Shown here one piece after another: positions 8,113 through 24,780 of a stretch of 27,777 bases of DNA. Both the position numbers and the translations under genes were made by a program. A model generated the notes under the pieces. It was not told the DNA's origin. It did not search any database and saw only the letters and a list, made by a program, of their open reading frames with translations. Positions within the stretch are counted from its first letter, which is position 1. Each line of letters opens with the position of its first letter. Origin of the DNA: a virus; IMG/VR virus record IMGVR_UViG_3300025137_004231, positions 1 to 27,777 of that record; one strand, written 5' to 3'.

Positions 8113-8465
8113 GCTTGACTGTCACCCTTACCTACTCTGTAATTATCTTCTACAGAGTCAGGGGTAGATACTTCTAGGATTGTACCCTCTTCTAAGCAAA
8201 TGATCTGATGAGGCACAAGAGTCGCATTCGTCCAGGCTTCGCCCTCACCCAGGGACTCAATGTTAACAGTGGCGTCTTCTGTGTCAATCCAATGCACTTC
8301 AAACTTGCCTGATAAAACGTACCAACTCTCTTCCTTATCCTTGTGGAAGTGCATAGAGAATTTAGCGCCAGAATTAAAAGATAAAAACTTACTACAATAC
8401 TTGTCATTTGTTACCCATATTAGTTCAGATCCCCAACCTTTTTTAACAAAACCCTCAAGTCTCAT
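8109..8465 (-). CDS. Small single-domain cupin, probable sugar-modifying protein, 118 aa
   Basis: A textbook cupin motif 1 is present: GAKFSMHFHKDKEESWYVLSG fits G-X5-H-X-H-X4-E-X6-G around residues 33-53, supplying two His and a Glu to bind a divalent metal. Motif 2 is partial, with PHQI near residue 88. Such small cupins include isomerases, epimerases and C-terminal domains of mannose-6-phosphate isomerases, so the reaction cannot be told from sequence. It overlaps the kinase gene by 11 bases and the hldD gene by four, so it is coupled to heptose synthesis and most likely acts on a heptose or related sugar. The start has GAGG six bases upstream. A nucleotide-sugar epimerase or isomerase is plausible; a purely regulatory role cannot be excluded. 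Confidence 0.8.
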   Translation of the reverse strand: MRLEGFVKKGWGSELIWVTNDKYCSKFLSFNSGAKFSMHFHKDKEESWYVLSGKFEVHWIDTEDATVNIESLGEGEAWTNATLVPHQIICLEEGTILEVSTPDSVEDNYRVGKGDSQA

Positions 8466-9210: not shown

Positions 9211-9562
9211 TGGTTCTCTCGTAGAATACTACCTTGTTACAGTACTCCTCCCCTATAACCTTTTTTCCTCTCCAATCAGAACCCTTAACCATTATGTCTG
9301 GTCTGTACCTTTCAAGAATTGCAAGAAGATCATTGTCTGTGTCAAATGTTACTACGCTTGTAACAGGTTTCAACGAACCAATTAAATGTTTTCTATTCTT
9401 AAGTTTATTGAAAGGTCTTCCTTCCCCCTTGTTATACTCAATACGCCTATCTGTGTCAATAGCTACGAGCAGGTGAGTGCCTAAACCCTTAGCAAAATCA
9501 AGCAGATCAAGGTGCCCTGAATGCACTACATCAAATGCTCCATTGACAAATATCTTCTTCAT
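9152..9562 (-). CDS. hldE (nucleotidylyltransferase domain): ADP-heptose nucleotidylyltransferase, HldE C-terminal-domain type, 136 aa
   Basis: Transfers AMP from ATP to heptose-1-phosphate to give ADP-D,D-heptose. A complete single-domain nucleotidyltransferase-fold enzyme is visible: NGAFDVVHSGH with the HxGH motif at residues 14-17, AIDTDRRI, KGEGRPFN near 45-52, DIMVKGSDW near 89-97 and the GQSTTKTI motif at 119-126. All match the C-terminal half of E. coli HldE. I start it at the ATG at 9562 because MKKIFVNGAFD is the family N-terminus; a longer frame to 9631 would run into the divergent gmhB. The Shine-Dalgarno is weak. Only fifteen bases separate it from the gmhB start, and the two promoters would lie inside each other's genes. 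Confidence 0.92.
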   Translation of the reverse strand: MKKIFVNGAFDVVHSGHLDLLDFAKGLGTHLLVAIDTDRRIEYNKGEGRPFNKLKNRKHLIGSLKPVTSVVTFDTDNDLLAILERYRPDIMVKGSDWRGKKVIGEEYCNKVVFYERTNGQSTTKTIENFITRRQLL

Positions 9563-9571
9563 AATTAAAAT
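9543..9571 (+). promoter_or_regulatory. Sigma70-like promoter for gmhB, apparently leaderless
   Basis: TTGACA at 9543-9548 (perfect -35), a 17-base spacer, and TAAAAT at 9566-9571 (five of six -10 matches). The expected transcription start, six or seven bases on, coincides with the gmhB ATG at 9578, and no Shine-Dalgarno is present. A leaderless message is inferred. Confidence 0.6.
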
Positions 9572-9577
9572 TACACC

Positions 9578-10222
9578 ATGTCTAGATTTAAACATATAAT
9601 AGAACAAGACCCACAGCAGATTCAACAACAAAATATTCCTAGTGATTGGCCTAAAGTATTTCCTAAGTCAATTGTTGGTTTGGATCGTGATGGTGTAATA
9701 AATGTAAACAAAGGTTACATCTCTGATCCTAACGATTGGGAGCCTATCCCTGGTTCTCTTGAAGCTATTCGTATGATTAGACTCAAAGGATATAAACTAG
9801 TTATACTAACCAATCAGGGTGGTATTATAAAAAAGGAGCAGACACATGACCAAGTAGAAGCTGTTCATCAACGTATGATGGAAGTCTTTGGTAATGCAGG
9901 TATCTACTCCATTGATGGTTTGTTCTATTCTGAAACCTCTCTGAAATGTGATTGCTTTGCTAAACCTAATCTTGGTATGTTTCACAGAGCAGAGAAAGAA
10001 ATATTTTTAGATAAGCATAGGTTTAAACAAAATGGTTTTTATGTTGGTGACAAGATGACAGATCTTAAAGCTGCAGAACGTATAGGTGCTAGACCTATTC
10101 TTGTTCGTACTGGTCATGGATTAGAAACTGAAGAAGACCTCAAGAAATTCTCAAGAGAGAAACTTAGAAAGAAGACCAAAGTGTTTGATGATCTTCTTCA
10201 GTTTGCTCAGAGGTTGCCTTAA
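9578..10222 (+). CDS. gmhB: D-glycero-D-manno-heptose-1,7-bisphosphate 7-phosphatase (GmhB), 214 aa
   Basis: Removes the C7 phosphate from heptose-1,7-bisphosphate, between the kinase and nucleotidylyltransferase steps. It is a HAD-superfamily histidinol-phosphatase-type enzyme. Seen directly: LDRDGVINV with nucleophile D36 and general acid D38, LTNQGGI with motif-II Thr at 78, KP in the motif-III region near 129-130, and VGDKMTDLKAA with D158 and D162. E. coli GmhB binds zinc through a CPH...CDC loop; here CDC is kept (C124, C126) but the first Cys and the His are replaced by SETS and the loop is shorter. About 30 extra Gln-rich residues precede the core. It is the only plus-strand gene. Its TAA is shared with the stop of the convergent carbamoyltransferase gene in a TTAA palindrome. 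Confidence 0.9.
   Translation: MSRFKHIIEQDPQQIQQQNIPSDWPKVFPKSIVGLDRDGVINVNKGYISDPNDWEPIPGSLEAIRMIRLKGYKLVILTNQGGIIKKEQTHDQVEAVHQRMMEVFGNAGIYSIDGLFYSETSLKCDCFAKPNLGMFHRAEKEIFLDKHRFKQNGFYVGDKMTDLKAAERIGARPILVRTGHGLETEEDLKKFSREKLRKKTKVFDDLLQFAQRLP
9596..9625 (-). promoter_or_regulatory. Possible sigma70-like promoter for the nucleotidylyltransferase-kinase-cupin-hldD group
   Basis: On the minus strand, TTGAAT (9625-9620), an 18-base spacer and TATTAT (9601-9596) lie inside the gmhB coding region, about 35 bases before the ATG at 9562. The -35 hexamer is the same as in the candidate promoter before the glycosyltransferase gene. In AT-rich DNA a chance match is possible. Confidence 0.35.
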
Positions 10223-11931
10223 GCAGCTTCCTCCATATCCTCAACAAGACTATCATTATAAGGATAATGCACTAGCTTACCTATGTCTGGTAAGTATAGA
10301 TAGTTTATGTCTGAGTTCTTCACAGTGTTTATGGCATCCTGTAAAGTCTCAACTAGAGGCTGACCTGCTAGATTAAAACTTGTGTTAAACAGGATAGGAA
10401 CACCAGTTATCTTATCAAACTCTTTTATCAGGGAATAATAGCTAGGGTTTTGTTTCTTGGTTACAGTCTGAATACGACATGTACCATCTACGTGTGTAAT
10501 CGCAGGAACTTCACCATGCTTCTCAGTCTTAAAGTCCATAGCATACATCATGTATGGTGACTCTTCTAGACCACGAGTTTCAAACCACTCTTCAAAGTTT
10601 TCTTGCAGCATCGAACCTGCAAAAGGTCTGAACCACTCTCTTCCTTTGACTGCGTTTACAAAGTCTTTACCATTAGTATCTGTAGGATCGTATAGTATAG
10701 AACGATTACCTAGTGCTCGTGGTCCTGCTTCAGAACGTCCTTGGAATAAAGCTACAATGTTTTTGTCTGCTATTAGCTTTGCTACATCAGCAGCTTTAAC
10801 ATCTTTAGTTTCTATATCACCAAGGTCATAGTCTTCTTTACGTTCAGGGCCAAGATAAAGAGTAGTCATAGGACGTATAGTCTTATCCTCTTTGTTCTTA
10901 TCGTAGTGAATTATTTTAGCTAACCCTATTGCTGTACCACCATCGTGAGAGATAGGGTCAACAAAGATATTGAGATCAGGAAACCTCTCCTTGTAGTAGT
11001 AGTTGGCTACACAGTTAAGACCATAACCACCTGATATAACAATGTTTTTGTGTCCTGTTCTATCTACAGACTTTTCGATTAAGTCTCCTACAAGAGTTTG
11101 TGTCTCATCTTGCACAGCCCAAGCTAAGTCTTTTGCTGCATCTGTTACCTTTGTGTGGTCACTATGCCAAGCTTTAGGATCTTCTTTTAGTTCTAGTAAA
11201 GGGTGGCGTGAGTGATCTACGTAAGCACCTGCAGGGTAGTTAGGGGTAAATACGTTTTTGTTACCTCTGCCATTATAAAACAAACTAGGAATAAACTCGT
11301 TTCTTTTACCATATGGTGCAAGACCCATAGTCTTACCTGCTTCAATGTAACCAAAACCAAGATAGTGTGAGACAGCTTCATATGCTTTAACTATTGTTAC
11401 AGCACTATCCATTTCTAAATCTTCACTTACTATACGTTGGGTATCGTAGTTTCCACCATAAGAAGTAAATACAGGTTTTATTCCCTCTTCATAGTCACAG
11501 TTAAAAATAGACTCTGTTTCAAAACCTGGGTTCTTAAACTCTTCATTAATTTCTATCTGTCTATGAGAACCAGACCCATCTACAATAACAGCAGCAGCCT
11601 GTTTAAATCCTGAGTTGTAAAAAGCATTTGCTGCATGACCTAGATGGTGAGCACTACCAACACTTATTATTTCCAGATTAGGGTTAAACTTTCTCAAAAA
11701 ACCAGAGTAAGGATCTTCTCCTGTCCAAGGTAACTGTGGGAATTGTTCTGAAGTACCACCAAGAACTAGGATGTCTACACCATACTTTAGTGCTTCCATC
11801 ATTCCTGCAAAAGGATTTCCATCATACTTACTACGAGAAAGTCTTTCTTCTTCTATGTAAAATTTTAATTCACCATCTACTACTAGAGCAGCAGAACCAT
11901 TATGCCCTGGATTGATTGCTAAAATATTCAT
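10219..11931 (-). CDS. O-carbamoyltransferase, NodU/CmcH family, 570 aa
   Basis: Transfers a carbamoyl group from carbamoyl phosphate, through carbamoyl-adenylate, to a hydroxyl of a sugar or other acceptor. The full family pattern is visible: INPGHNGSAAL at 6-16, metal-binding HHLGHAANAF at 95-104, VDGSGS near 117-122, GKTMGLAPYG at 199-208, GGYGLNCVAN at 301-310, HDGGTAIGLA at 329-338, EAGPRALGNRSIL at 401-413 and FRPFAGSML near 434-442. Length is normal for the family and no key motif is missing. AAGGTGA precedes the ATG, which overlaps the glycosyltransferase stop as TAATG. Tight linkage to a heptosyltransferase-like gene and to ADP-heptose synthesis suggests the acceptor is heptose. 7-O-carbamoyl heptose is a known component of Pseudomonas LPS cores. 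The acceptor here is inferred. Confidence 0.92.
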   Translation of the reverse strand: MNILAINPGHNGSAALVVDGELKFYIEEERLSRSKYDGNPFAGMMEALKYGVDILVLGGTSEQFPQLPWTGEDPYSGFLRKFNPNLEIISVGSAHHLGHAANAFYNSGFKQAAAVIVDGSGSHRQIEINEEFKNPGFETESIFNCDYEEGIKPVFTSYGGNYDTQRIVSEDLEMDSAVTIVKAYEAVSHYLGFGYIEAGKTMGLAPYGKRNEFIPSLFYNGRGNKNVFTPNYPAGAYVDHSRHPLLELKEDPKAWHSDHTKVTDAAKDLAWAVQDETQTLVGDLIEKSVDRTGHKNIVISGGYGLNCVANYYYKERFPDLNIFVDPISHDGGTAIGLAKIIHYDKNKEDKTIRPMTTLYLGPERKEDYDLGDIETKDVKAADVAKLIADKNIVALFQGRSEAGPRALGNRSILYDPTDTNGKDFVNAVKGREWFRPFAGSMLQENFEEWFETRGLEESPYMMYAMDFKTEKHGEVPAITHVDGTCRIQTVTKKQNPSYYSLIKEFDKITGVPILFNTSFNLAGQPLVETLQDAINTVKNSDINYLYLPDIGKLVHYPYNDSLVEDMEEAA

Positions 11932-12857
11932 TACTTCACCTTCTTTTCAATATCTTTTACAATGTTAGTATACATTGCATTTATTTCTTCGTCACTAAAA
12001 TCCATCAGAGTATCGTTAGCTCTGTCAGCTAGGTGACTCTCAAGACCTGAGATACGAATAGGTGAGTATTTCTTAGCATCCTTCTTTTCTACAATGTTAA
12101 AGTAATCTGGATAAGTTGTGTTGATAGCAAATGTAGAACCAACAATTACTGTTCCAGGAGTTCCTAATGCTCTAGCCATGTGTTGACCAACTGAGTCTAC
12201 ACCAATAAAGTAGTCTGCTGAACCAATAAATGCAGTCCACATTCGTAGGTCTGCCTGTGGTTTTACAGTATAGGTATCCTCTGCCATATGAAAATCTGGT
12301 TCAGCCATAAGAACTAGGTTGTACTTTACACTTAGCTTCTTAACTAGTTTTAGATACGACTGAGGATCAAGAGAACGAGATGATTCATCAATAATAGTAC
12401 CAGTAGGATGTTTTTGTGCAGAACGTCCAAAGGGTTGTAACACAATGTTCTTTTGTTTTTTCTGCTGATTCTTTGCATCCAAGAACATACCTGCTGCATT
12501 AATCTCTTCCATCTTAGAGGTTTTAAGAACAGGTAGGCCTAGATCAGAATGATCATGCGTATCATTAATTAGAACATCAAAGGCTTCAGCTAAAGATAAT
12601 TCTTGTTTAAAGTATCCTGGTACTCGATATGGTTCAGGAGATACAAGTTCTTCAGCATCTTTTATTACGTGGTCAAAGATACCTTTTTGTTCAGGGTTAA
12701 ATACTTTGTCTTGTAGTTCAGGGATACCCCAGTATAAAGTATCCCATCCATGTACTAGTATAGCAAAATCGTCATGTTTCTTTGCATACTTTAGGAAAGC
12801 AGGTATAGATGCTACAGCACGACCTGCGCCCCCATCAATAAAAAATAGTTTTTTCAC
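11931..12857 (-). CDS. GT9-family glycosyltransferase, ADP-heptose:LPS heptosyltransferase-like, 308 aa
   Basis: Two Rossmann halves of a GT-B glycosyltransferase are visible. The N-terminus reads MKKLFFIDGGAGRAVASIPA, equivalent to the glycine loop of heptosyltransferases. After the linker come IVLQPFGRSAQKH near 138-150 and the hallmark GVDSVGQHMARALGTPGTVIVGST near residues 219-242, which contacts the nucleotide sugar. GT9 enzymes typically move heptose from ADP-heptose to LPS core; other sugars are possible. The start is GTG, fixed by in-frame TAA codons just upstream. A near-consensus promoter ends about 40 bases before it. With the downstream carbamoyltransferase it forms the transfer half of the sugar cassette, while genes 9578-7339 form the synthesis half. 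Confidence 0.85.
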   Translation of the reverse strand: MKKLFFIDGGAGRAVASIPAFLKYAKKHDDFAILVHGWDTLYWGIPELQDKVFNPEQKGIFDHVIKDAEELVSPEPYRVPGYFKQELSLAEAFDVLINDTHDHSDLGLPVLKTSKMEEINAAGMFLDAKNQQKKQKNIVLQPFGRSAQKHPTGTIIDESSRSLDPQSYLKLVKKLSVKYNLVLMAEPDFHMAEDTYTVKPQADLRMWTAFIGSADYFIGVDSVGQHMARALGTPGTVIVGSTFAINTTYPDYFNIVEKKDAKKYSPIRISGLESHLADRANDTLMDFSDEEINAMYTNIVKDIEKKVK

Positions 12858-12900
12858 GAGTCTTCTTTCTTATTATTATTACCCATGAAGGGTGCTCGTT

Positions 12901-12929
12901 ATTATAGTCTGATGTTAAACTAAATTCAA
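12901..12929 (-). promoter_or_regulatory. Sigma70-like promoter ahead of the sugar cassette
   Basis: On the minus strand, TTGAAT (12929-12924), a 17-base spacer and a perfect TATAAT (12906-12901). The -35 overlaps the stop of the chaperone-like gene. The expected start near 12894 would give a leader of roughly 35-40 bases before the GTG at 12857. It would let host RNA polymerase transcribe the cassette separately from the virion genes. Confidence 0.6.
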
Positions 12930-13399
12930 GAGGGTTGTGTAGGCCAGTCTATTATCCAAGGGTTAGTCACAGACGTAGGAAGGTTACGCAGTAAACCCCT
13001 GTAAGTAGCCCACGCAGCTTTCTTTTCGTCTGTTAAAGGAGAGTCAGAAGATTGAGTCCAGTCACTGTCACTAAGCTTTTTATTTCTAGCTAACCTGAAT
13101 ATATCTATTTGATTATTTTTAGCTTCATCTAGTGGAATCTCATCAGTAACTTCTAAATAAAAAGGCGTAGTATCAGGTTCAGCCTGGCCATACTTACCAA
13201 AGTTAGGGATAGCATATTCAAAAAGATCTATTACAGCATCATCAACACCCTCTTCTAATGACTCTATTGTAATAGTTCTTGGGTGTACTTCTGTATCCCA
13301 CTCCATAACTTTCTTATTGTATAAGGATGTTGGGTGTGAATACAATATTTCAGACAGTATGCCATCTGAACTACTATTAAAAATAAAATAGTATTTCAT
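12926..13399 (-). CDS. Tail fibre assembly chaperone-like protein, 157 aa
   Basis: The C-terminal third matches the phage tail assembly chaperone motif (Phage_TAC / tail fibre assembly type). LARNKKLSDSDWTQSSDSPL and DEKKAAWATYRGLLRNLP correspond to the common R-x-x-L-x-x-SDWTQ...LT-x-x-KKAAWA-x-YR-x-x-LR-x-LP pattern, around residues 103-141. Proteins with this domain are usually encoded right after a fibre gene and help the fibre fold or trimerise. Here the gene directly follows the cysteine-rich 826-aa protein with a TAATG overlap, marking that protein as the likely client. The N-terminal 90 residues are acidic and not recognised. AAGGT lies eight bases before the start. Confidence 0.8.
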   Translation of the reverse strand: MKYYFIFNSSSDGILSEILYSHPTSLYNKKVMEWDTEVHPRTITIESLEEGVDDAVIDLFEYAIPNFGKYGQAEPDTTPFYLEVTDEIPLDEAKNNQIDIFRLARNKKLSDSDWTQSSDSPLTDEKKAAWATYRGLLRNLPTSVTNPWIIDWPTQPS

Positions 13400-15879
13400 T
13401 AATCTTTACCTTTTATAAATGAAGTAATTTTTTTATCTGTTTGACACACAGTTAATGTATCTAAATGAGGAACTGTTCCCTGAATACTCCCTTGAACTGC
13501 GTCTGTTATTCCTGTGTTAAAAGTTGAATAGCAATTATTTGATGGATTATAAATACCATGAATTAACCCAAGATTAGTAAAAATTACACCTGAACAAATC
13601 CACTGTTCCCCTGCCATTAAAAGCCTACACGTACTAGCACTATAACCACTGGTCCATTTTCTTCCTGAACTGGTTTTTGAAACTATACAACAAAAAATTG
13701 CTCCAGGAAATGTATCCATATTATAACTCATAATTTGCATGTTAAGACCACCACACACATTATGTATAGTATTAAGCCATCTAGTATTGCTTTGATTATA
13801 GAAAAGGTAGCAAGAACATTCACACTGTTGTTTAGCCCCTGGAAAAGAATTACCTGAAGTTGTTCCCATGCAGCAGACAGTTGCTTGGTTACAAGCACCA
13901 GTTATACACCACATAGTTGCAAGACCTCTTGCTACATTATAAGAACACAATCTACAGGTTGCACAATTCCAGTATTTAAATCCATGATGTTCATTACAAA
14001 TACAGTGATTGTTATATTCTGCTTGAATAAATGCTGTAGGTAGACAGATTTTAAAGCAACATGTTTGGCAATTATGGCTAGTGTTAAGGTGAAACTTTTT
14101 CAGTTTTAAACATTCACCATTCTGATCATGAGCAACAATAAATCCTGCTAGACAAGTAAGAGTATCACAGGAAAGAAAGAATGCGTTATCAAATGATTGG
14201 GGGAAGGCAGAGCCTTCACCTTTATTGTCACAAGATCTCTGATAGACTGCAGTAAGATCATTGTATTTACAGTAGTCCATACCACTGTTATTTTTAGTTT
14301 TTCTTGCTTGATCATTTCTATCTCTGTCGCCCCAATGGTTATTACCATTTTGATCAATAGCTGGCATACCCACAAACAAACACATAGCATCATTACATCT
14401 ACGATTTTGTGTTAGGTTGTTGTAGTTTAAACAATTTACACAGTTACTCCCATTTGTAAGGTTGACTTTACATACGCAGTTTTGGCAAGCACACTTTAAA
14501 TAAATTGTGTCATTAATACATCTGCAACATCCTCCCAAAAAGAAGTAATGAAGACCAACAGGTAAAATTCCACACTGCTGTGATGTCCAAGATGCGAGAT
14601 TACAGACACAACAACCATTTCCACAATGATTTACTTTAACAAATTGGTTAGTACAAGAAGGTGCAGAGATGCAAGCTTTCCAAAAAAACTGATCACAAAT
14701 AAAGTACGCATCTCCACTTACATCAGTAGCACCTGAAGTACCATTATTAAGAACATTACAATTTTCACCTCCAAAAATGTAACAAGCATTTCCTTTAAGG
14801 TGGACTAAATAGACTGAAGAACCTGCATAACAACTATTATTCCTAAACGCAATTAAACTAACTACTGAAGCACAACATTTTGGTCTATCATAACATAATG
14901 TGTTTCGTTGACAAATTGTCTGCTGTCTTCCACGAGTCCAATTAGCACAGCCCACAAGAGTTTGTATACACTGGACACATGTGTGACAAGTGGGAGCACC
15001 TGTAGTAGTTGTACATATTTTAGCTAATGATATTGAACCACATCTACTATCACAATTAAATACGTTAAAACTTTGAAGCATAGATGTGCCTTCAGTTAAA
15101 AAACACATCCAACATCCTGCTACACCTGCGCCATTTGACAGTGTTGAGTTATTACAACAACCTACATCACAACAGTTTATAAAGGTAACAGCACAAGTAG
15201 AGTCACAGTTAATAGCTGTAATAAATTTTGCGTAGTCTACTAATGCACTGTCACACTGACAAAACCTACAGCTAAAAATTACAAACCCATTATGTGCAGG
15301 TGCTACACCAAAGTTACACTTACATACAGTTCCATTAATTTCACCTACTTTAGTGTATTCTCCACTCACAGTTTTAAATGTTACAGCTTTGTAGCAACAA
15401 GTAGGAAAATCATATGTTACTGCTGAAAAACCCTGACAACAGTCATGAAAATTTGTTTCAGTACTAGCAAGTGCTCCCCCAGTAAAAATATCTATATCTG
15501 ATAAAGGATTAAATGGTGTAGGTTTTGAAAACTTACCTATTACCCACTCACCCTGTTGAGCACTGTTGTCATACAGTGAAGCATCCACTGCTCCTCCAGG
15601 AAGTATAGCAGTTAAAACACAACTTGTGTTATCTCGTAAAAGAAAAGTAGTTGTAGTGTTTTCATTTTTTATTACATAAGTAGGAGATCCTGGGGATAGA
15701 GAAGTTGCGTTGGGAAGGGTAATATTCCCACTAGGACACTCACAGGTTAAACAAATAGCTAAAGATCTATTGCTGTCTGCACAAACTGTGTAAGAAGTAG
15801 TGCCAGTAACTAAACCACCACCACCCCCTGCAGGGCCATCAGAACCACCACTTGCTGCAAATGTTGAATATGTACTCAT
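13399..15879 (-). CDS. Cysteine-rich putative tail-tip / receptor-binding protein, 826 aa
   Basis: By my count about 83 of 826 residues are Cys (10 percent), with ten CC pairs and about ten CxC motifs from residue 33 to the C-terminus. The neighbouring fibre has none. After a Gly/Ser-rich N-terminus, residues about 28-120 look like a beta-rich domain of the kind seen in phage fibre tips (ITLPNATSLSPGSPTYVIKN and later GEWVIGKF). The rest is Asn/Cys/aromatic-rich with no recognised fold, no signal peptide and no membrane span. The reading frame is sound: uninterrupted over 2.4 kb, GAGGGA before the ATG, and a TAATG link to a tail-assembly-chaperone-like gene. Position at the end of the fibre module suggests a receptor-binding or tip protein. 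Cysteines may bind metal, stack in a beta-solenoid or form disulfides after release. Function is inferred. Confidence 0.75.
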   Translation of the reverse strand: MSTYSTFAASGGSDGPAGGGGGLVTGTTSYTVCADSNRSLAICLTCECPSGNITLPNATSLSPGSPTYVIKNENTTTTFLLRDNTSCVLTAILPGGAVDASLYDNSAQQGEWVIGKFSKPTPFNPLSDIDIFTGGALASTETNFHDCCQGFSAVTYDFPTCCYKAVTFKTVSGEYTKVGEINGTVCKCNFGVAPAHNGFVIFSCRFCQCDSALVDYAKFITAINCDSTCAVTFINCCDVGCCNNSTLSNGAGVAGCWMCFLTEGTSMLQSFNVFNCDSRCGSISLAKICTTTTGAPTCHTCVQCIQTLVGCANWTRGRQQTICQRNTLCYDRPKCCASVVSLIAFRNNSCYAGSSVYLVHLKGNACYIFGGENCNVLNNGTSGATDVSGDAYFICDQFFWKACISAPSCTNQFVKVNHCGNGCCVCNLASWTSQQCGILPVGLHYFFLGGCCRCINDTIYLKCACQNCVCKVNLTNGSNCVNCLNYNNLTQNRRCNDAMCLFVGMPAIDQNGNNHWGDRDRNDQARKTKNNSGMDYCKYNDLTAVYQRSCDNKGEGSAFPQSFDNAFFLSCDTLTCLAGFIVAHDQNGECLKLKKFHLNTSHNCQTCCFKICLPTAFIQAEYNNHCICNEHHGFKYWNCATCRLCSYNVARGLATMWCITGACNQATVCCMGTTSGNSFPGAKQQCECSCYLFYNQSNTRWLNTIHNVCGGLNMQIMSYNMDTFPGAIFCCIVSKTSSGRKWTSGYSASTCRLLMAGEQWICSGVIFTNLGLIHGIYNPSNNCYSTFNTGITDAVQGSIQGTVPHLDTLTVCQTDKKITSFIKGKD

Positions 15880-15891
15880 TCTATTCCCTCT

Positions 15892-16464
15892 TTATTGTGC
15901 TATTGCCCAACCAATAGTTGAGTTAACAAACTGTAACTGAAAAGCTGCGTAAGCTGCATCGACAGTCATATCCTCACCAAGGCTCATAATATTAGATCCA
16001 TTACGTCCAATGATACAATTATTGTTACCACCTATTTCTGTGATAGCTACTGTATCCCCTGCACTTGGACTAGCAGGTAACGTAAGTGTTACTGCAGAAC
16101 CATTTAAGATAACTCTAGTATCTTTGGTAGCTGTCGCATTTGAAGTAACTACAGTAGGCGTAAGCTCTTTTTGTTTCGTATCCATTTGAGTTTGTATTGC
16201 TGAAGTAACACCAGTAGTATGACTTAGTTCTGCAGCAGATGCTGTCACCCCATCTAGTTTGTTTAATTCAGCAGCATTAGATGTAATAGCTGCACCACCT
16301 ATCTGCAAAGCTGTAGAAGCATTAAGAGTAGGTACTGTAGCAGTTCCTGTGAAGGTAGGGTTTGCAAGAGGAGCAGCGCCTGTTACTTCTGCCACAGATA
16401 TTGCACCATCAACCAGGATACCTCCTGCTGACATAAAGTCTGCTAAATCTCTTGCTTTACTCAT
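15892..16464 (-). CDS. Short tail-fibre-like protein, 190 aa
   Basis: Begins MSKARDLADFMSAGG, an N-terminus common to phage tail-associated proteins, then GAAPLANPTFTGTATVPTL. A linker with AELNKLDGV and TSAIQTQMDTK follows, and residues about 105-190 form a beta-rich domain ending FVNSTIGWAIAQ. The TSAIQTQxDTK and NPTFTGTA elements recur near the C-terminus of the 998-aa fibre. AAAGGG lies seven bases before the ATG. It is one of four consecutive genes between the tail hub and the chaperone-like gene, so it is probably an accessory fibre or adaptor for a tip protein. Confidence 0.75.
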   Translation of the reverse strand: MSKARDLADFMSAGGILVDGAISVAEVTGAAPLANPTFTGTATVPTLNASTALQIGGAAITSNAAELNKLDGVTASAAELSHTTGVTSAIQTQMDTKQKELTPTVVTSNATATKDTRVILNGSAVTLTLPASPSAGDTVAITEIGGNNNCIIGRNGSNIMSLGEDMTVDAAYAAFQLQFVNSTIGWAIAQ

Positions 16465-16478
16465 ATTTTAACCCTTTC

Positions 16479-17594
16479 TTACACAGGTGGATCGTAGTTT
16501 ATAACTTTAACTTGCCCTGGATCAGTACCACTTCCACTTAAAACATGTTTGGCTCTAAACTGTGCATTTGCAGCAACATTCATTACAGTCAGATAAGCAC
16601 CACTGCTATCAGAATTAGTAACATACATTTTGTCATTGGTATCATCTAAAACACCATATTGAGGTGAGTTTAAATTAGTAGTTCCACCAGTTGTTTGTCT
16701 TACAAAAGTAGGATTATTAATGTTACTTACATCAATGGTTACAAGTTTATGGTTGTTTGCCTGACTCATATTATACATGTAATTTCTAGTTCTATGAAAT
16801 ATATTTACTTTAGCACCATCTAAACTTCCAGATTTACTGAAGGCACTAGCATTAGCAATTTGATCTGTATTTGAACCAGAGGTAAATCCTTCTTTAAAAA
16901 GTATTTGTTCTTGAGAGGTACTTGAAATAGCAATAAAAACATTGTCACCATTACCACTAGGTGCGATACCAAGACCTCCATACCCTGAAGAAATATCCTG
17001 ATCATCTCTATCTTGTACTGATGATCCATCGTATTCTAATAATTGTAATTTACCAGGACTACCATTAGAGTTTGAATATGCAAAACCTGTGTCTGGATCA
17101 ACAGAAATATCAAATTGACCTGCGTTATTCCCACCTGTACCTCTGTTTCCAAGAAGACTAAAACTACTTTGATTGGATACATTTATCGCATAAACTTGAT
17201 TTTCACCAACAACCCAAAGCCTACTATTTGTAACGTCAATATCACAAGCAAACAAAGGGTCATTTGAACCTACATTAAGTGTGCTACCTAAAGACATACT
17301 TTTAGGATTAGATACATCTATAACACCAACACGCCTTGTTGAGTTTCTTGTGGAAAAATATATTCTTTTGTTAGTTTGATCTGCTGCAATTCCAGAAACA
17401 CCATTAAGTGTACCACCACTAATTGTATCAATTTCTACAGGATTATTTGGATCACTTACGTCAATAGCATGTATTGTATCTATTTCTTGATTTGCTACAA
17501 ATACAACAGATGTAATTGATGCTCCTGCTGCTGCACCAATGCCACCAAACCCTCTAGCTGAAGCTGCACCAAATGTTGAAAGTAAAGGAGCCAT
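16479..17594 (-). CDS. LVIVD-type beta-propeller protein in the tail module, 371 aa
   Basis: The sequence is built of six to seven beta-propeller blades. Recurrent blade motifs include IHAIDVSDPNNPVEIDTI, VGVIDVSNPKSMSLGSTL, VYAINVSNQSSFSLLG, LVTIDVSNINNPTFVRQT and LTVMNVAANAQFRAKHVL. The xxIDVSNPxxP core is typical of LVIVD repeats, which occur in bacterial surface and secreted proteins and are not standard tail parts. I start it at the ATG at 17594 because AGGA lies five bases upstream, overlapping the fibre stop region; the upstream TTG at 17609 is less likely. The N-terminal 30 residues are small and hydrophobic (Gly/Ala-rich). Its place between two fibre-like genes suggests a tail-borne, possibly glycan- or protein-binding module. 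Confidence 0.8.
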   Translation of the reverse strand: MAPLLSTFGAASARGFGGIGAAAGASITSVVFVANQEIDTIHAIDVSDPNNPVEIDTISGGTLNGVSGIAADQTNKRIYFSTRNSTRRVGVIDVSNPKSMSLGSTLNVGSNDPLFACDIDVTNSRLWVVGENQVYAINVSNQSSFSLLGNRGTGGNNAGQFDISVDPDTGFAYSNSNGSPGKLQLLEYDGSSVQDRDDQDISSGYGGLGIAPSGNGDNVFIAISSTSQEQILFKEGFTSGSNTDQIANASAFSKSGSLDGAKVNIFHRTRNYMYNMSQANNHKLVTIDVSNINNPTFVRQTTGGTTNLNSPQYGVLDDTNDKMYVTNSDSSGAYLTVMNVAANAQFRAKHVLSGSGTDPGQVKVINYDPPV

Positions 17595-17601
17595 ATTATT
17601 C

Positions 17602-20598
17602 CTATGCAAACTGTGTTTGAGATGCTAACACTGTGAATGTAGCATCTGCTGTTTTGATAATCGTGAATGAGTAAGCATCAATACTAGATGCGTTACCTCC
17701 TGTAGGGGCTGTCCCACCTGACCACTTTGGTGTTACTGATGAACTATCAACCTGATACGCATTTAAATAATATGCAGTAGAACCTTGTGTCATTGCAATA
17801 GAAACAGTTAATGACTGACCAATAGCCAAGTTAGAATTTACATTTGTAAAATTTATAGTTCTGTTTCCACCTTGATTTGCAGTGTAAAGTTCAACAGCTT
17901 GTGCAGTTGTATCAAAAGTAATTGTTCCAGTAGTAGAGGTTTGTACTGTTACTTTCTCATACACTTCTTCAATATCAAGTGTACCATCAATTGTTGCTTT
18001 TGTTGTAAATGTTGGGCTTGCAGTTGGTGCTTTTGTATCTAATTGAGTTTGTATTGCTGATGTTACACCATCAAGATAACCAACTTCTGTTGTAGTAATT
18101 CCTGATGGAAAAGTAGGTAAGTTTGCATCGTATGCTAAAACGTTTGTTCCTATGGCTACACCTAGAGTTGTTCTAGCTGCTGATGCGTCAGCATCATCAA
18201 CAAGTGTTCTAGCAAATGAAGAGAAGTCTGTTACAGCATATGTATCAGAACCACTCGTAAAAATTATTTTATCTGCTGCAGTTGTTAGTCCTGCAATTGA
18301 AGTTAGACCTGCATCGTAAGCCTGTACGTTAGATCCAATAGCTACACCAAGATTTGTTCTTGCTGTTGATGCACTGTCTAAATCAGAGAGGTTGTTTGAT
18401 TCTAGTAAATATCTAGCATCAGACTGTGTTTGTGATAAATGATCAGCTAAAGTAAATGTACCATAAGCTACAATATCAATTATGTCACCTACAGTAGCTC
18501 CAGATGCAAGAACTATACTAGTTCCTGATGTAGCTGTAAAGTCTGTTCCAGATTTTAATTTCAAACCATTCATAAATACATCTACAAAACCAGAATCGTA
18601 TGTAGCTGCAAACGTTGTTTGATTTGCAGTGGCTGTGTAAGTGTTACGACTTGAAGTTCCATTAACAGATGAACCTGCAGCAGTCCAAGAACCACCACTA
18701 GTTCTAACATTCATAATATTTGTGGTGCTATTAAAATAGAGAGCACCAGTAACTAGGGCATCCCCATCGTTGTCTACACTAGGAGCAGATGACTTAGCAC
18801 CAAGGTATCTGTCATCAAACGAATCAAAACTAGCTGCTGCAGAGGTTGCACTAGAAGCAGCCCCAGTTGCAGAGGAAGCACTAGCAGTAGCACTTGAGGC
18901 AGCAGCAGTGGCAGAACTAGCAGCAGCAGATGCTGAAGTAGAAGCTGCAGTAGCTGAACCAAGTATGCCATCTACATATGTTTTTGTTGTGAGATCAGCA
19001 CTTGCACTTGGTGTATAACTAGCAGTAATTTTGTTACTACCTACTGCCAATGCACCTGTTAATGTACCACCTGCTAATGGTAAGAATGTATCTGTTGTAT
19101 ACTTCTTAGTTGCTGCATCTTGGTTAGCTGTTGGATCACCTAGCCCTGTAATCTTGCTAGTACCCATAGCTATAGCACCAGACATTGTACCACCTGCTAG
19201 TGGTAGCTTGGTAGCTATACTATTTGTAATAGTTGTAGAAAAATCTGCATCATCACCTAACGCAGCAGCAAGTTCATTTAATGTATTGAGTGTTCCAGGT
19301 GCTGAGTCAACAAGCCCTGCTACCTCTGTATCCACATATAATTTTGTTGCTGCGTCTAAATCAGAACTAGGTGCTGTAAGATTAGTAATCGTTGCAGATG
19401 TACCTGCGTTCATATTTAGACTGCCATTAATAGTCACATTAGTAAATGATGATGTGCCTGAACCTGCAGTTACGTTACCTGTTAAATCCCCTGCTACGTC
19501 ACCAGTAACATCACCTGATATATTACCTGTAACGTTACCTGTAATGTTTCCAACAAAATTTGTGTTTGCTGTAACTGTTGTGCCTGTTATGGCTGCAGGT
19601 GTACTACCCCCAATAACAGCAGCATCAATAGTACCACCATTAATATCAACAGTCGCCAGTGTCGCCTGACCAGATGTAGCAACAGTTGTAAAGCTACCTG
19701 ACGAAGCACTAGAAGCACCAATTGTTGTGCCATCCACAGCACCCCCATTAATATCGACTGTAGCATGTGTTGATGTTCCTGTGCTTGTTAAGTCTGTAAA
19801 TGTACCTGCACCTGCAGAAGACCCACCAATAGTAACACCATCTATTGCTCCACCATTAATGTCTGCAGTTGTTATTGTAGTAGTGCCTGAAGCTGTAAGA
19901 TCTGTAAACGTACCTGCAGCAGCAGTTGTATTACCAATAGTAGTGTTGTCCATTGCACCTGAGTTAATATCAGCAGATGTAATAGTTGTTGTACCTGTAA
20001 GAGCAGATGTACCTGTAACAGCAAAAGTGCCACCTACAGCAGCATTACTAGAAGCAGCTAGTGTTGTAAAACTACCTGCTGCTGCTGAGTTTCCACCTAC
20101 TACTGCACCATCAACAGTACCTCCATTTATATCTGCAGTGGTAGCAACTAAAGATGTAAATGTACCTGCTGCAGGGGTAGTACCTCCTATTACTGCACCA
20201 TCAATTGTACCACCTGTAATGACAACAGAATCAATGTAACCTATACCATCAATGTACAGATTTTTGAACTCTGCTCCTGTAGCACCAAGATCTATATCAT
20301 CATCAGATACAGGTTTGAGGACACCATCCTCTAGTCTAATTTGCTCTACAGCAGAAGAAGATACCTCAGTAAAAAAACTAATTCTGTTATTTGATGTATC
20401 TACAACAACTTTGTTTAGGGCGTCAGCATCAGCTATGCGAGGAACGTTAGCTCCCTCACCTGTACTGCCATCATGTTTGTGTCCACTTGCTGCAGCAAAG
20501 GCATCTCGCAAAGCATTGTATTCTGCGTTTACTGGTGCAGCTTTAATGACTGCATTAGCAATAATGTCAGCTACTGATTGTCTTGTATAACCTGCCAT
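17602..20598 (-). CDS. Long repeat-rich tail fibre, 998 aa
   Basis: Residues 1-70 form a conserved-looking attachment region (YNALRDAFAAASGHKHDGSTGEG). Residues about 124-345 hold six tandem repeats of some 30-36 residues with the core INGG(T/A)(I/V)DGxxIGGxxxAAGTFTxL, then a GNVTGN/GDVTGD stretch at 350-376. Two PLAGGTxxGAxxxGxxKIT units (466-525) and an Ala/Ser-only coiled-coil linker (548-590) follow. Two copies of xxARTxLGVAIGxNVxAYDAxL lie at about 745-765 and 806-826, and a C-terminal beta domain at 880-998 ends LASQTQFA. There are no cysteines. Such architecture is typical of trimeric fibres that bind host surface receptors. GGGGGAT precedes the ATG, which abuts the upstream stop. Confidence 0.88.
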   Translation of the reverse strand: MAGYTRQSVADIIANAVIKAAPVNAEYNALRDAFAAASGHKHDGSTGEGANVPRIADADALNKVVVDTSNNRISFFTEVSSSAVEQIRLEDGVLKPVSDDDIDLGATGAEFKNLYIDGIGYIDSVVITGGTIDGAVIGGTTPAAGTFTSLVATTADINGGTVDGAVVGGNSAAAGSFTTLAASSNAAVGGTFAVTGTSALTGTTTITSADINSGAMDNTTIGNTTAAAGTFTDLTASGTTTITTADINGGAIDGVTIGGSSAGAGTFTDLTSTGTSTHATVDINGGAVDGTTIGASSASSGSFTTVATSGQATLATVDINGGTIDAAVIGGSTPAAITGTTVTANTNFVGNITGNVTGNISGDVTGDVAGDLTGNVTAGSGTSSFTNVTINGSLNMNAGTSATITNLTAPSSDLDAATKLYVDTEVAGLVDSAPGTLNTLNELAAALGDDADFSTTITNSIATKLPLAGGTMSGAIAMGTSKITGLGDPTANQDAATKKYTTDTFLPLAGGTLTGALAVGSNKITASYTPSASADLTTKTYVDGILGSATAASTSASAAASSATAAASSATASASSATGAASSATSAAASFDSFDDRYLGAKSSAPSVDNDGDALVTGALYFNSTTNIMNVRTSGGSWTAAGSSVNGTSSRNTYTATANQTTFAATYDSGFVDVFMNGLKLKSGTDFTATSGTSIVLASGATVGDIIDIVAYGTFTLADHLSQTQSDARYLLESNNLSDLDSASTARTNLGVAIGSNVQAYDAGLTSIAGLTTAADKIIFTSGSDTYAVTDFSSFARTLVDDADASAARTTLGVAIGTNVLAYDANLPTFPSGITTTEVGYLDGVTSAIQTQLDTKAPTASPTFTTKATIDGTLDIEEVYEKVTVQTSTTGTITFDTTAQAVELYTANQGGNRTINFTNVNSNLAIGQSLTVSIAMTQGSTAYYLNAYQVDSSSVTPKWSGGTAPTGGNASSIDAYSFTIIKTADATFTVLASQTQFA
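19459..20229 (-). repeat. Tandem coding repeats in the tail fibre gene
   Basis: About six degenerate units of roughly 90-110 bases encode the INGGxxDGxxIGG...AAGTFT repeat, followed by short hexapeptide-scale GNVTGN units near 19470-19550. They are visible on the plus strand as recurring ACCACCATTAATATC-like and GTACCTGC-like blocks. Confidence 0.8.
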
Positions 20599-22137
20599 TT
20601 AAAGTCTATCCCCCACGCCAAACGTCACAACTATGCCTTGAATACTGTGTGAAGCATTTGAATCATTTGTAACATATTTTAAAGAAACTGATTTACCTGA
20701 ACCTGATATATTTGTACGTTGTACTGGTGATGGATTACCATCAAATATAGCTGTACTATTATAAGCAGCTTCATTGTAGTATGCTGCAGCACCCTCAGTA
20801 CTCAAAGTAAAGTTTGTTGGACTTAAAGATTTTGGATCTTCGTAGTCATATACTACAGACATCACAATCTCGTTATCTCCCTCAGAACGTAAATAAGTTG
20901 CTACAGTATAAAATATTTTTCTTTGTTCTGGATCTTGCATATAAAGAAAGGGAGTCTGATAAACACTAAAGATATTTGTTCCTGCAAAAGTATTGCCCTG
21001 TTCTTGTCTGTGAACTTTACCTGTGCTATCTCCATGAATTACAAATTCATTTTGTCCTATGTATCCACTAGCTGCAGAAGTTGCTGAGATACCTAGCATC
21101 TGGCTGTACTCAAACTGTAGCCCATTAGGTGTTTCTCTAAAGCCACCTATAATACCCTGTGAATCTGCTGCTCCAAAGAAATATCTAAACTGAGTCTTCT
21201 GTTTAATGGTAACAGCATTTAGTGTATCTAGATCAATATCAAATACAATATCTGTAAAGATAGACTGAATATTTTTAGATACTGTTTCTAGATTAACGTC
21301 ACCTATTTTAGATGTACCTGAGATTGGGCGTAGACCATCCTGGGATAAAAATAGTAAGTCACCACCAATTTCTATAACACTGTCTGTAGCTAAACACCCA
21401 AGGTCATCTGTAACAGTCTGTAGCGCAAAGTTGGCTAGTGCTGTCCCTGATAACTTTTTAATATTGGTAGAACCAAAAATGTAGAGTTCATTCCTAAAAG
21501 ACTTTATAGCTACAATAGGAAACCCTACATTTACTACTCCTGCTCCACTGGCTGAAGCAAAGTTTGTTTCTGCTAATGGAGCACTAAAGTAAAGATTTGT
21601 TTTTTCTGCAGGATCACCTGCTAGAAATAAATGATTTTGAAATACTGCAGAATACTTAGGGTCTGTAGGTGCATCTGAATGAGTAATCTGAGTATATGTC
21701 GAACCATCATAAGTAGCTGCAGGATTTATTCCATCTGTAAGCACAACCTTTGGGGAGCCAAAGTTTAGTTTAGAAAATCTAACTTTAGTTACGCCTACCA
21801 TTGTAGGTGAACCTGAAGTACTTACTGCATCCCAGGCTGAACTAGAGTTATTAAATTTATGTAAGTAGTTATTACCTGATGAGGGTTTACGAGCAGCTAA
21901 GATTCCATCGTTAATTCCATCGACTACTGCTACACCTAGAACATTTCCTGTCCCTGTTACAGTTCCATAATCATTAGAAAAACCATTTATCTTTCTGTAG
22001 CCACCAGTAACAGCAGGTTCGTAATTGATAAGTGTAATAGCAGAGCCAGGTTGTGTCTCACCCTGAGATAACACGTCACGACTGGTATTCAATCCACCCT
22101 GAGCAAACACCTTAAAAGAGGCAAGATTGTCAGCCAT
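20599..22137 (-). CDS. Tail hub / nozzle protein, P22 gp10-like, 512 aa
   Basis: The N-terminus FKVFAQGGLNTSRDVLSQGETQPGSAITLINYEPAVTGGYRKINGFS is typical of podovirus tail-hub or stabilisation proteins (P22 gp10-like, functionally akin to T7 gp12), where an early Gly-rich segment is followed by INYEPxxxGGYRxxxGF. The rest is predominantly beta, in propeller-like units (VVLTDGINPAATYDG, AVFQNHLFLAGDP, IVAIKSFRNELYIFGS, LLFLSQDGLRPI). It would join the adaptor ring to the tail tip. The ATG overlaps the adaptor stop as TAATG, with AGGAAGAG upstream. Length is normal for the family. Confidence 0.82.
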   Translation of the reverse strand: MADNLASFKVFAQGGLNTSRDVLSQGETQPGSAITLINYEPAVTGGYRKINGFSNDYGTVTGTGNVLGVAVVDGINDGILAARKPSSGNNYLHKFNNSSSAWDAVSTSGSPTMVGVTKVRFSKLNFGSPKVVLTDGINPAATYDGSTYTQITHSDAPTDPKYSAVFQNHLFLAGDPAEKTNLYFSAPLAETNFASASGAGVVNVGFPIVAIKSFRNELYIFGSTNIKKLSGTALANFALQTVTDDLGCLATDSVIEIGGDLLFLSQDGLRPISGTSKIGDVNLETVSKNIQSIFTDIVFDIDLDTLNAVTIKQKTQFRYFFGAADSQGIIGGFRETPNGLQFEYSQMLGISATSAASGYIGQNEFVIHGDSTGKVHRQEQGNTFAGTNIFSVYQTPFLYMQDPEQRKIFYTVATYLRSEGDNEIVMSVVYDYEDPKSLSPTNFTLSTEGAAAYYNEAAYNSTAIFDGNPSPVQRTNISGSGKSVSLKYVTNDSNASHSIQGIVVTFGVGDRL

Positions 22138-22865
22138 TAGAGAACTCTTCCTAGAACCTGATTAGAAGAAGTAACTCTATCAACTACTGTTGATCTTATT
22201 CTTAGGGGTTCATCAACAAGTAGTCTTCTCATTGATTTAATACCATCTTCAAAATTGTTTTGGTGCATTGCAGCACTCTGCTCATTAGACCTAAACCTCA
22301 TCATGTACATCATAGCACCATCAATAAGAACGTGTTTGAACCTATCTGGCACGATTGCTGTATCATTAAAAGCAGTTAGGTCTGCAGGAAACTTGTAATA
22401 AATATATTCTATTTCGTAGGCTTGATCTGCTATAGGAGTTACACCAAACTTTGCTTCATCAGTCTGATATACTAAAGTTGGCGCAGAGATACCTGTTTGA
22501 TCTCCTGTGTCATCAAAGTGTCTGTACTTTTGAATGTACTCTTCGTAGCTAATTGTAGGAAGAGACATAGGACTATTATCTACAGATGTTAGCTTCTTAA
22601 TATAAAACGTTTGCCAGTCTGCCCTAGAATAATCAGCAGGAAAATCGTATTGTCTAGTTCCTGCTACTAGAGTTTGTGTGTTTGTTGTTTTTAGAAAAGG
22701 CCATTCTTGGCCTGTCTGTAAGATATTTCTAATGGAGTTGTTTACTGCATCCTTAGCTAATGCTTGAACATTACGTACTGCCCCAAAGCCATCTCCTGCT
22801 GTATCAAGAGTAACTTCATTTAACCTACGTAGTAATTCGTTAACTAACGCAACGTATGTAGCCAT
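22137..22865 (-). CDS. Head-tail adaptor, T7 gp11 / P22 gp4-like, 242 aa
   Basis: Helical N-terminus (VALVNELLRRLNEV), then NSIRNILQTGQEWPFLKTT and a RQYDFPADYSRADWQTFYIKK segment. These are typical of phage adaptors that bind the portal ring and carry the tail (tail tubular protein A family). The C-terminal helices include RFKHVLIDGAMMYMMRFRSNEQ and FEDGIKSMRRLLVDEPLRIRS. AAGGA lies eight bases before the ATG. The gene is separated from the capsid genes by a hairpin and is coupled to the hub gene by TAATG, so the two are probably made in similar amounts. Confidence 0.82.
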   Translation of the reverse strand: MATYVALVNELLRRLNEVTLDTAGDGFGAVRNVQALAKDAVNNSIRNILQTGQEWPFLKTTNTQTLVAGTRQYDFPADYSRADWQTFYIKKLTSVDNSPMSLPTISYEEYIQKYRHFDDTGDQTGISAPTLVYQTDEAKFGVTPIADQAYEIEYIYYKFPADLTAFNDTAIVPDRFKHVLIDGAMMYMMRFRSNEQSAAMHQNNFEDGIKSMRRLLVDEPLRIRSTVVDRVTSSNQVLGRVL

Positions 22866-23467: not shown

Positions 23468-24541
23468 CTAAGCTGCGTTATATTTAGCAGTGACGATTGC
23501 TTCTGGACGTAGGATCTTGCGACCATATAGGTGCATTCCCCTCACAATGTCAGCAAAGCTATCTGGATCACGATATGTTTCAGTCTTACTGATCTGCTCT
23601 GCAGTTGCTACTGCTGAGTCATGACCACCAACGATAACACCAAAATTAGTGTTTTGGTTGGCTGATCCTGAAGTCCCTGAACCTGATCCTACTGCAGGAA
23701 GGTTTGAGGAAACATACATTCTAAAACCATGCATGTTATTCAGTACTAGACCATTACGTAGTGCACCTGATTCACCATAATCAGCATTTAAATATCGAGA
23801 ATCCTCGTCTGCTAATATTTCCATGAACACAGGGTCAACAACAAGCCACCTATTTTGTGTATCAACTTGCTGTTGATCCATCAAACGTTTCATGCGTGAG
23901 ATAATCATCGCAGGGGAAACTGTTGCTGTTGGTAGTGCTGTTGCACCAGGTAGACGTGCTGCTACTGGGATCGAATGATCTGCAGCAGAAGTCGTTGTGA
24001 TGTTACCAAATGAAGACTTGATAAGCTTCATTGAAGATAACAATTCGTCAGAACCTGCAGTTGTAACTGCTTTAGTTCCATTCACTACGTCATTCACTGC
24101 ACCTGCTTTTGAATGTAGAGCAGACTGTTTGTAACCTGATAGATAACCAAGAACTTCTTGGTCATGCTGATCAGCCAAACGATATGCTGCACGATCAGTT
24201 GCAAGCTGCATGAAATTAGAATGTGAGTGCGCTTCCTCAATATCGTCGATCTTAAAAGCATAGTAGTTCGCTTTATCTACGACTAGAGAAAAGTCTTCGT
24301 CATCAAGATCCTGTGCTGAAACCTGTGTACCCCTAGCATAGGCGTTCACAGAAATTTCTGGCTCCTTGATAATTTTTACTGTATCTCCTTGGGCAGAAAT
24401 CTCCCCAAAAAAATCAGAGTTAGTTATGTCGCCAACGACTGTACTCTTGCGAAAAGCAAGCTGTACTTTTTTGCTATAAATGACGCTAGAAAAGTTCCCA
24501 TTGGGCAAATTTCCATAGCCACTTGCTGTTTGAAAAGCCAT
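23468..24541 (-). CDS. Major capsid (coat) protein, 357 aa
   Basis: The sequence has the features of an HK97-fold podovirus-like coat protein. An N-terminal arm (MAFQTASGYGNLPNGNFSSV) is followed by SDFFGEISAQGDTVKIIKEP and VNAYARGTQVSAQDLDDE, which match the E-loop/P-domain pattern. Then come FKIDDIEEAHSHSNFMQLATDRAAYRLADQHDQEVLGYLSG (spine helix region), RWLVVDPVFMEILADEDSRYL and a NNMHGFRMYVSSNLPA segment near the C-terminus. I start it at the ATG at 24541 because GGAGG lies eight to nine bases upstream and MAFQT is a typical coat start; a frame open to 24586 adds an implausible 15 residues. It follows a scaffold-like gene and a 240-bp gap with its own candidate promoter, as expected for the most abundant virion protein. 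Confidence 0.9.
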   Translation of the reverse strand: MAFQTASGYGNLPNGNFSSVIYSKKVQLAFRKSTVVGDITNSDFFGEISAQGDTVKIIKEPEISVNAYARGTQVSAQDLDDEDFSLVVDKANYYAFKIDDIEEAHSHSNFMQLATDRAAYRLADQHDQEVLGYLSGYKQSALHSKAGAVNDVVNGTKAVTTAGSDELLSSMKLIKSSFGNITTTSAADHSIPVAARLPGATALPTATVSPAMIISRMKRLMDQQQVDTQNRWLVVDPVFMEILADEDSRYLNADYGESGALRNGLVLNNMHGFRMYVSSNLPAVGSGSGTSGSANQNTNFGVIVGGHDSAVATAEQISKTETYRDPDSFADIVRGMHLYGRKILRPEAIVTAKYNAA

Positions 24542-24780
24542 GATTAAATCCTCCATGATATTTGGCTTAAGAAAAAGCTTAAACATCTGAAAGAGGCTGT
24601 ACGTTTTCTAGGGTGCAGTAAGTACTTAGATTGCGCCTCTAAATACTACTGGGCCTATACTTGTCCAGGTAGTTCTTTATAGTTTAGACTTTAATGAAAA
24701 GTATCCTTGAAGGTAGTCCATAAGGAGGCTTCAAGCTAGATACTGGTAGTTATATAGATGACTTTAAATAAGTCAACTAT
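24542..24780. promoter_or_regulatory. Non-coding leader region before the coat gene
   Basis: This is the longest gap in the window. On the minus strand it holds the promoter at 24776-24749, a 6-bp stem (AGAGGC 24592-24597 with GCCTCT 24635-24640), a 7-bp stem (CTTGAAG 24706-24712 with CTTCAAG 24729-24735), a small TTAAG/CTTAA hairpin at 24567-24582, and the GGAGG site of the coat gene. A structured 5' leader is plausible. No open frame of note. Confidence 0.5.
24749..24776 (-). promoter_or_regulatory. Sigma70-like promoter for the coat gene
   Basis: On the minus strand, TTGACT (24776-24771), a 16-base spacer and TATAAC (24754-24749) give five of six matches in each hexamer. It lies just after the scaffold stop. 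The spacer overlaps an inverted repeat (TGACTT / AAGTCA, 24759-24775) that could be an operator or RNA stem. Confidence 0.5.

Follow-up and report, generated by a model that had tools for sequence, protein, structure and literature searches.

A gene in the tail locus of a marine podovirus probably encodes a gp38-like distal tip adhesin, whose leader would dock on the tail fibre and whose beta-propeller head would bind the host. In the mechanism that we propose, the leader (plug) would dock onto the fibre whose gene lies just upstream, at its C-terminal domain (socket), and the propeller head, held at the fibre tip, would bind the host surface, probably through a glycan or a surface protein. 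The arrangement would be that of T2/S16-type gp38 on gp37, with a propeller replacing the polyglycine head. This reading draws on a leader pairing of the kind expected for a gp37-gp38 arrangement, together with the precedents for propellers in phages; that the leader docks, that the protein is part of the virion, that it binds a receptor and what this receptor is are all inferred. The location of the gene is usual for a host-binding protein; its propeller head is the unusual part.

Results

Gene order of the tail locus

The window, meaning the whole stretch of DNA analyzed here, is an IMG/VR virus record of 27,777 bases. Judged by sequence it is an HMO-2011-type marine podovirus, since its major capsid protein (23468..24586) is 78% identical to that of Roseobacter phage CRP-9 and 69% identical to that of Puniceispirillum phage HMO-2011. 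The capsid and fibre genes are homologous to those of this group and the structural genes lie in the same order; the fibre match to HMO-2011 itself covers 20% of the query, and HMO-2011 has a set of small tail genes at the corresponding place. The features of the capsid and tail region given here and below are all on the minus strand. A head-tail adaptor gene (22137..22865; Pfam SU10_adaptor, E 2e-25) and a tail fibre gene encoding 998 residues (17602..20598; PHROG tail fibre, E 3e-31) are present, the latter lying directly upstream of the propeller gene in transcription order. Over residues 1-730 this fibre shares 63-70% identity with the fibre genes of Roseobacter phages CRP-1, -2 and -13, while its C-terminal domain (approximately residues 868-998; 17602..17997), the proposed socket, belongs to class A as defined below, matches phrog_5906 (E 8e-22) and ends in TFTVLASQTQFA. 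On its other side the propeller gene is adjoined by a second, short fibre-like gene (15892..16464) with the end NSTIGWAIAQ and weak PHROG matches, one of them to a fibre family (E 4e-4), so that the placement between two fibre genes given in the original prediction was borne out. There follow a probable second tip/head gene (13399..15879), whose cysteine-rich product of 826 residues starts with MSTYSTFAASGGSDGPAGGGGG and has no Pfam or PHROG match, and a gene for a tail fibre assembly chaperone (12926..13399; Pfam Phage_tail_APC, E 3e-17).

The virion region also contains a block of sugar-related genes (7339-12857), among them a carbamoyltransferase (Pfam E 3e-63) and a GT9-like gene with a sub-threshold Pfam match; its plus-strand members are presumably NAD-epimerase-, cupin-, sugar-kinase-, nucleotidyltransferase- and HAD phosphatase-like.

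The propeller gene and its predicted fold

The propeller gene had been placed at 16479-17594, and an open frame does occupy exactly these coordinates. It lies on the minus strand, where an in-frame ATG at 17594, 7 bases past the stop of the 998-residue fibre gene, gives 371 residues, and a TTG start extends the open reading frame to 16479-17609 and 376 residues; frame 1 translation of the plus strand over 16479-17594 contains many stops. The protein consists of a leader of approximately 25 residues (MAPLLSTFGAASARGFGGIGAAAGA; 17520..17594), which matches the class A leader profile described below and is the proposed plug, and a head of approximately 345 residues (16479..17519, including the stop codon). 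Two IMG/VR scans returned only two relatives of this head (L138/L002 and L003).

The head is best read as a seven-bladed LVIVD-type beta-propeller. Its assignment to the LVIVD family (PF08309) is a borderline one, made from a single Pfam score that was the top match of the protein (22.7 bits versus a cut-off of 20.2, E 6e-5); no repeat was individually significant at E ≤ 1 in Pfam, and LVIVD was absent from the L138 and L003 relatives at E ≤ 0.001. Alignment of the head to itself gave a best score of 69 versus a shuffle mean of 39.8 (sd 6.8), which was reached by 2 of 200 shuffles, and for the relatives the observed score was reached in 1 of 200 (L002) and 2 of 200 (L003) shuffles. By eye the head could be divided into seven blades, the first being completed by the C-terminal strand of the chain. 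This accords with the six to seven blades originally proposed, but the IDVSNPxxP core that was attributed to all of them is clear, as IDVS(N/D)P, only in blades 1, 2 and 6 and is degenerate in the others.

A single-sequence AlphaFold2 model of the protein had a pLDDT of 32, and a model made with an 11-row alignment (the window protein, its relatives from L002 and L003, and eight LVIVD segments from bacteria or archaea) had a pLDDT of 61.6 and a pTM of 0.67, with residues 303-371 (the last ~70) below a pLDDT of 50. Among 967 chains aligned by VIA-align, where rows no more than 1 Z apart count as tied, the predicted fold was matched best by 1l0q, an archaeal surface-layer YVTN propeller (Z 28.4, rmsd 2.4, 276 aligned), and by the seven-bladed designer protein 7bid (Z 27.9, rmsd 2.2, 267 aligned), with nitrous oxide reductases and lactonases just behind. 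Most of the modelled fold can thus be superposed on solved seven-bladed propellers. As the eight LVIVD rows in the alignment may impose the propeller fold, the repeat test serves as independent support, and Pfam match, internal repeats and model agree with the LVIVD beta-propeller that had been predicted.

Lactonases among the neighbours of the model would be in keeping with an enzyme at the fibre tip, a lyase, lactonase or glycosidase that would cut back capsule or exopolysaccharide. Propellers are known from phage endosialidases (PMC4901313, in excerpt), and a few other heads in the same slot match enzyme-named families, namely 3-keto-disaccharide hydrolase (2) and Lactonase (1) among the 40 low-glycine heads surveyed below. 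We nevertheless consider an enzyme unlikely, as neither Pfam nor PHROG gave an enzyme family match for the window protein and the top match of its model is a surface-layer YVTN propeller, though enzymes are close behind; a binding head remains the preferred reading.

Sequence searches of the PDB returned nothing, and five tblastn matches of the head among 50,697 phage records (E 0.1 to 7) were discarded. When LVIVD proteins were gathered by motif (119 ORFs), the best phmmer E-value with the head was 3e-10, via short repeats only, and its matches to bacterial LVIVD proteins were short repeat alignments in shifting register. A viral scan for the IDVS motif yielded 10 stretches. Two of them, L220 and L225, were L002 and L003 once more; of the other eight, L221, L224 and L227 have, by eye, propeller-like repeats within larger proteins, and in the remaining five the use of the motif looks accidental by eye. 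All eight were left out of the analysis. LVIVD proteins of bacteria and archaea are often surface proteins, and the model is matched best by a propeller from an archaeal surface layer, both of which would suit the original suggestion of a mimic, here in the form of a bacterial surface LVIVD protein that was captured and imitates a host protein. This suggestion found no support and we regard it as extremely unlikely, given that a pattern-based scan of a genome collection (84,980 species), which needs near-exact short peptides and would let distant relatives escape, found no relative of the head, that likeness elsewhere is at the level of short repeats, and that the protein carries a fibre-specific leader which is also present on unrelated heads.

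Leader classes and fibre ends

Class A was defined by the fibre C-terminal end TVLA-QTQ-A and class B by the end found in L002, LFISGTVCVLSGNVS. An IMG/VR scan with the class A fibre end returned at least 120 stretches; the matches listed held 122 class A C-terminal matches including the window, with a downstream ORF in 118, and nearly all of these ORFs start like the window leader MPLLGTFGAGSARGFG. For the class B fibre end there were 287 relatives, and in the best 80 a downstream ORF was present in 79, nearly all with an MSGIMMQLLG-like leader (in L002, MSGVMMALLGGSFG).

Leave-one-out profiles, for which each sequence was left out along with its leader-identical copies, were then applied to the non-identical proteins of both classes. 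A matching leader was found in 108 of 110 class A proteins (among the matches listed, and counting L003, whose fibre ends in LASVTQFA, a sequence that does not fit the class A pattern, and which was put into the set by hand) and in 65 of 67 class B proteins (from the best 80 of 287). The leader of the window scored 35.5 bits on the class A profile (leave-one-out) and 1.7 bits on the class B profile. The four failures were L027 and L037 in class A, the latter having a leader-bearing gene just outside the search range, and L165 and L213 in class B. Controls were other non-identical ORFs of at least 100 residues from the same loci: at 8 bits leader A was met in 7/1468 and leader B in 0/1468, and at 5 bits in 10/1468 and 3/1468, respectively. 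The seven leader-A controls start like additional tip genes, two coming from L041 and one being the out-of-range gene of L037. Cross-scores at 8 bits were reached by no class A protein on the B profile and by one class B protein on the A profile.

Leader class was thus found to follow fibre-end class, as a pairing of sequences. Neighbouring genes are co-inherited, so the pairing alone could reflect linkage; the exchange of heads and the cassette data presented below speak for a coupling of leader and fibre beyond linkage. We met no description of such a leader/socket pairing in open-licence PMC papers, though one may already exist in print.

Three class A leader genes lie in a single locus at L041:1889-6046 (minus strand), suggesting that a phage may carry several tip proteins. 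The class B fibre loci L141, L147 and L153 also hold, within their first ~2.3 kb, a class A leader gene (e.g. MTIWMPRKKPLYAPMLATFGGGSVKGFN), which suggests phages with both couplings.

Among named phages, the cultured CRP-3 and CRP-738 have a class A fibre end. The genes that come next start with MPFLASFGGGSARGFN (glycine-rich) in CRP-3 and MLGTLGGGSARGMG in CRP-738, and their scores on the A leader profile are 28.9 and 22.7 bits, respectively. The gene past the class A fibre end of ctXG6705, an assembled genome, scores 12.4 bits and is annotated 'phage tail fiber adhesin gp38'. With S-SCSM1 (11.6 bits), Syn30 (9.1) and S-E7 (9.1), these make 6 of 9 named phages with a class A-like fibre end whose next gene reaches 8 bits; S-MbCM6 (6.6), S-BM3 (4.9) and P-SSM7 (-3.3) fall below, and S-CBS2, with a class B-like fibre end, scores 4.6 bits on the B profile. 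In S-SCSM1 the similarly placed gene is labelled '(virion protein)' in the record; with a fibre match of only 30% and a leader score of 11.6 bits, this label is not counted as proof. CRP-1, -9, -13 and -603 have a DUF7483-type head past a fibre-like gene with neither leader at 8 bits, and these other leader starts suggest that the A/B coupling is one of several. Variation of fibres in CRP phages is treated in general terms in the literature (PMC6918029, in excerpt).

Repeat proteins also occur in two further phages. A WD40-like repeat protein of ctYwJ313 lies shortly past the fibre position (L016:18223-22088; Pfam PD40, E 1e-12) and has neither leader at 8 bits; an antisense ORF that covers part of the region homologous to the fibre bears the name 'ribonuclease E' in this genome, perhaps through mis-annotation. 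In Lentibacter phage ICBM2, repeats that look propeller-like by eye occur in two hypothetical proteins of the tail region (L354:36421-37632 and 34452-35999, minus strand), which adjoin tail assembly chaperones and have neither leader by eye; a 403-residue protein of ICBM2 is a fold match of the propeller-gene model.

Heads found on the two leaders

Glycine makes up at least 25% of 137 of the 177 non-identical heads (class A among the matches listed, class B from the best 80 of 287), and 10% of the window head. For the remaining 40 heads, Pfam at E ≤ 0.001 gave 22 families overall, including, beside the enzyme-named ones above, Laminin_G_3 (5), FG-GAP_2 (4), SBBP (3), DUF7483 (3), WD40 (1), Kelch (1) and LVIVD (1). 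Once BLAST cluster mates of the Pfam-positive members are counted too, propellers account for 17 of the 40 low-glycine heads (SBBP 8, FG-GAP 4, LVIVD 3, WD40-like 1, Kelch 1). Propellers had been thought not to resemble known tail parts, which these data contradict: SBBP, FG-GAP, WD40 and Kelch propellers fill the same slot in other marine phages.

Four head clusters, the LVIVD, FG-GAP, SBBP and DUF7483-type ones, include both leader classes; heads therefore pass from one plug to another, the leader remaining with its fibre. The window head, on leader A, is 91% identical to the L138/L002 head, on leader B, and the leaders of the window and L002 agree in 3 of 30 columns; an identical head type on two leaders amounts to a natural experiment on fibre-tip exchange. 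The class B fibre before the L002 propeller (L002:2568-5309) has internal repeats (VGTVSGTSISFGS) that look ICBM2 gp49-like by eye, and perhaps itself contains an additional propeller.

Exchangeable heads also bear on whether the propeller protein could be a fibre assembly chaperone that attaches to the C-terminus of the fibre while the trimer folds and is afterwards shed. T4 gp38 is a chaperone of this kind that is released (PMC12892980, in excerpt), and the propeller gene has the same position as T4 gp38. A separate fibre chaperone is encoded at 12926-13399, however, and it is not obvious why a chaperone would require heads that are unrelated, exchangeable and mostly glycine-rich. A chaperone role is therefore quite unlikely in our estimate, and we retain the reading as a fibre-tip adhesin.

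Cassette exchange between phages

Close relatives of the window hold other genes at the place of the propeller gene. The fibre of one of them, L356, is 91% identical to the window fibre up to residue 835, where the match breaks off, and similarity of the DNA returns where the 15892-16464 gene starts; between these breakpoints L356 has a fibre end of another kind, along with a small gene and a protein of 529 residues that contains cysteine. L003 is 79% identical to the window over 16433..17983, a stretch that opens near fibre residue 873, takes in the propeller gene and closes within the first codons of the gene that follows, and outside this cassette it has only one 72-base match to window positions 12900-20700. 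L356 and L003 are reciprocal mosaics relative to the window, and the break in the one and the match in the other define the exchanged unit as the fibre C-terminal domain together with the head gene. The propeller gene adjoins a fibre gene in L002 and L003 as well. Its position in a fibre-tip slot, its fibre-matched leader and its movement as a block with the fibre C-terminal domain all support the acquired host-binding module of the original prediction, and the wide presence as a fixed tail component that would have spoken against this prediction was not seen: close relatives have other genes instead, and the two IMG/VR scans gave only two relatives of the head.

Between the L003 and window heads, identity is 50% in blade 4, 53% in blade 5 and 70-92% in the other blades, and this concentration of divergence makes blades 4 and 5 the first candidate for a putative binding face. 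A propeller that was exposed as a structural spacer or decoration with no receptor role would fit the similarity of the three heads outside blades 4-5; we judge such a spacer very unlikely in view of the different genes at this place in close relatives and of the L003 divergence being confined largely to two blades, which favour an adhesin.

The short fibre at 15892-16464 has relatives at 69-98% identity in six IMG/VR contigs and at 29% in a seventh. The six (L355-L360) keep the order of short fibre followed by a head-type gene, the place taken in the window by the probable second tip/head gene. L358 and CRP-2 have similar TIGWAFS fibre ends, followed by MANISTYFPSGGGG and MSNLSDFLGGSGGGG starts, respectively. 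The TIGWAIAQ/TIGWAFS fibre ends perhaps represent a third coupling class, though the seven loci, one of them weak, are too small a sample for a claim.

Discussion

On balance, we favour a wider reading in which the fibre C-terminal domain and its matching leader would form a two-part coupling that is common to several marine phage groups and accepts unrelated heads. The heads on this coupling would, with the same degree of confidence, comprise polyglycine lattices, at least five kinds of propeller, laminin-G-like domains and DUF7483 domains. If this is correct, host range may change by a swap of heads on a fixed plug and also by exchange of a socket-plus-head cassette, and the LVIVD head would be a natural example of both kinds of exchange.

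The closest known system is gp37-gp38 of T-even phages (T2/PP01/S16-type), to which the likeness is drawn without a sequence comparison of the leaders with gp38. The gp38 gene of T-even phages lies directly 3' of the fibre gene, and the propeller gene likewise follows its fibre immediately, with a 7-base gap. In T2-type phages the tip of gp37 carries gp38, which has to fit its own gp37 by its N-terminus; in a T2 phage without gp38, PP01 gp38 could stand in only once the N-terminal 113 residues had been swapped (PMC12892980, in excerpt). The sequence pairing of leader class with fibre-end class seen here is what such an arrangement would lead one to expect. The gp38 adhesins are described as glycine-rich (PMC12892980, PMC9608196, both in excerpt), as are most heads in the slot studied here. 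Unlike these, the window protein has a leader of only ~25 residues and a propeller in place of a polyglycine sandwich, its 10% glycine setting it apart from polyglycine heads, and it belongs to a podovirus.

With the LVIVD proteins (PF08309) of bacteria and archaea the window head shares the IDVS(N/D)PxNP repeat core and a predicted seven-bladed propeller. It differs in its borderline score, in blades that are mostly 46-55 rather than ~42 residues long, and in having a fibre leader instead of other domains. Propellers are reported in proven or putative receptor-binding proteins of phages, namely the phi11 RBP, PRD1 P2 and phiKZ gp131 (PMC4901313, in excerpt), which resemble the window protein in placing a propeller in a (putative) host-recognition protein; in phi11, however, a single large RBP chain includes the propeller, whereas in the window it is encoded by a separate gene with its own leader. 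The simplified fibre of Pam3 (gp24/gp25) is alike in having a glycine-rich, S16 gp38-like tip and a separate chaperone gene, and differs in that, as far as the excerpted description goes, fibre and tip form one chain with a TNF-like domain and without a propeller (PMC9608196).
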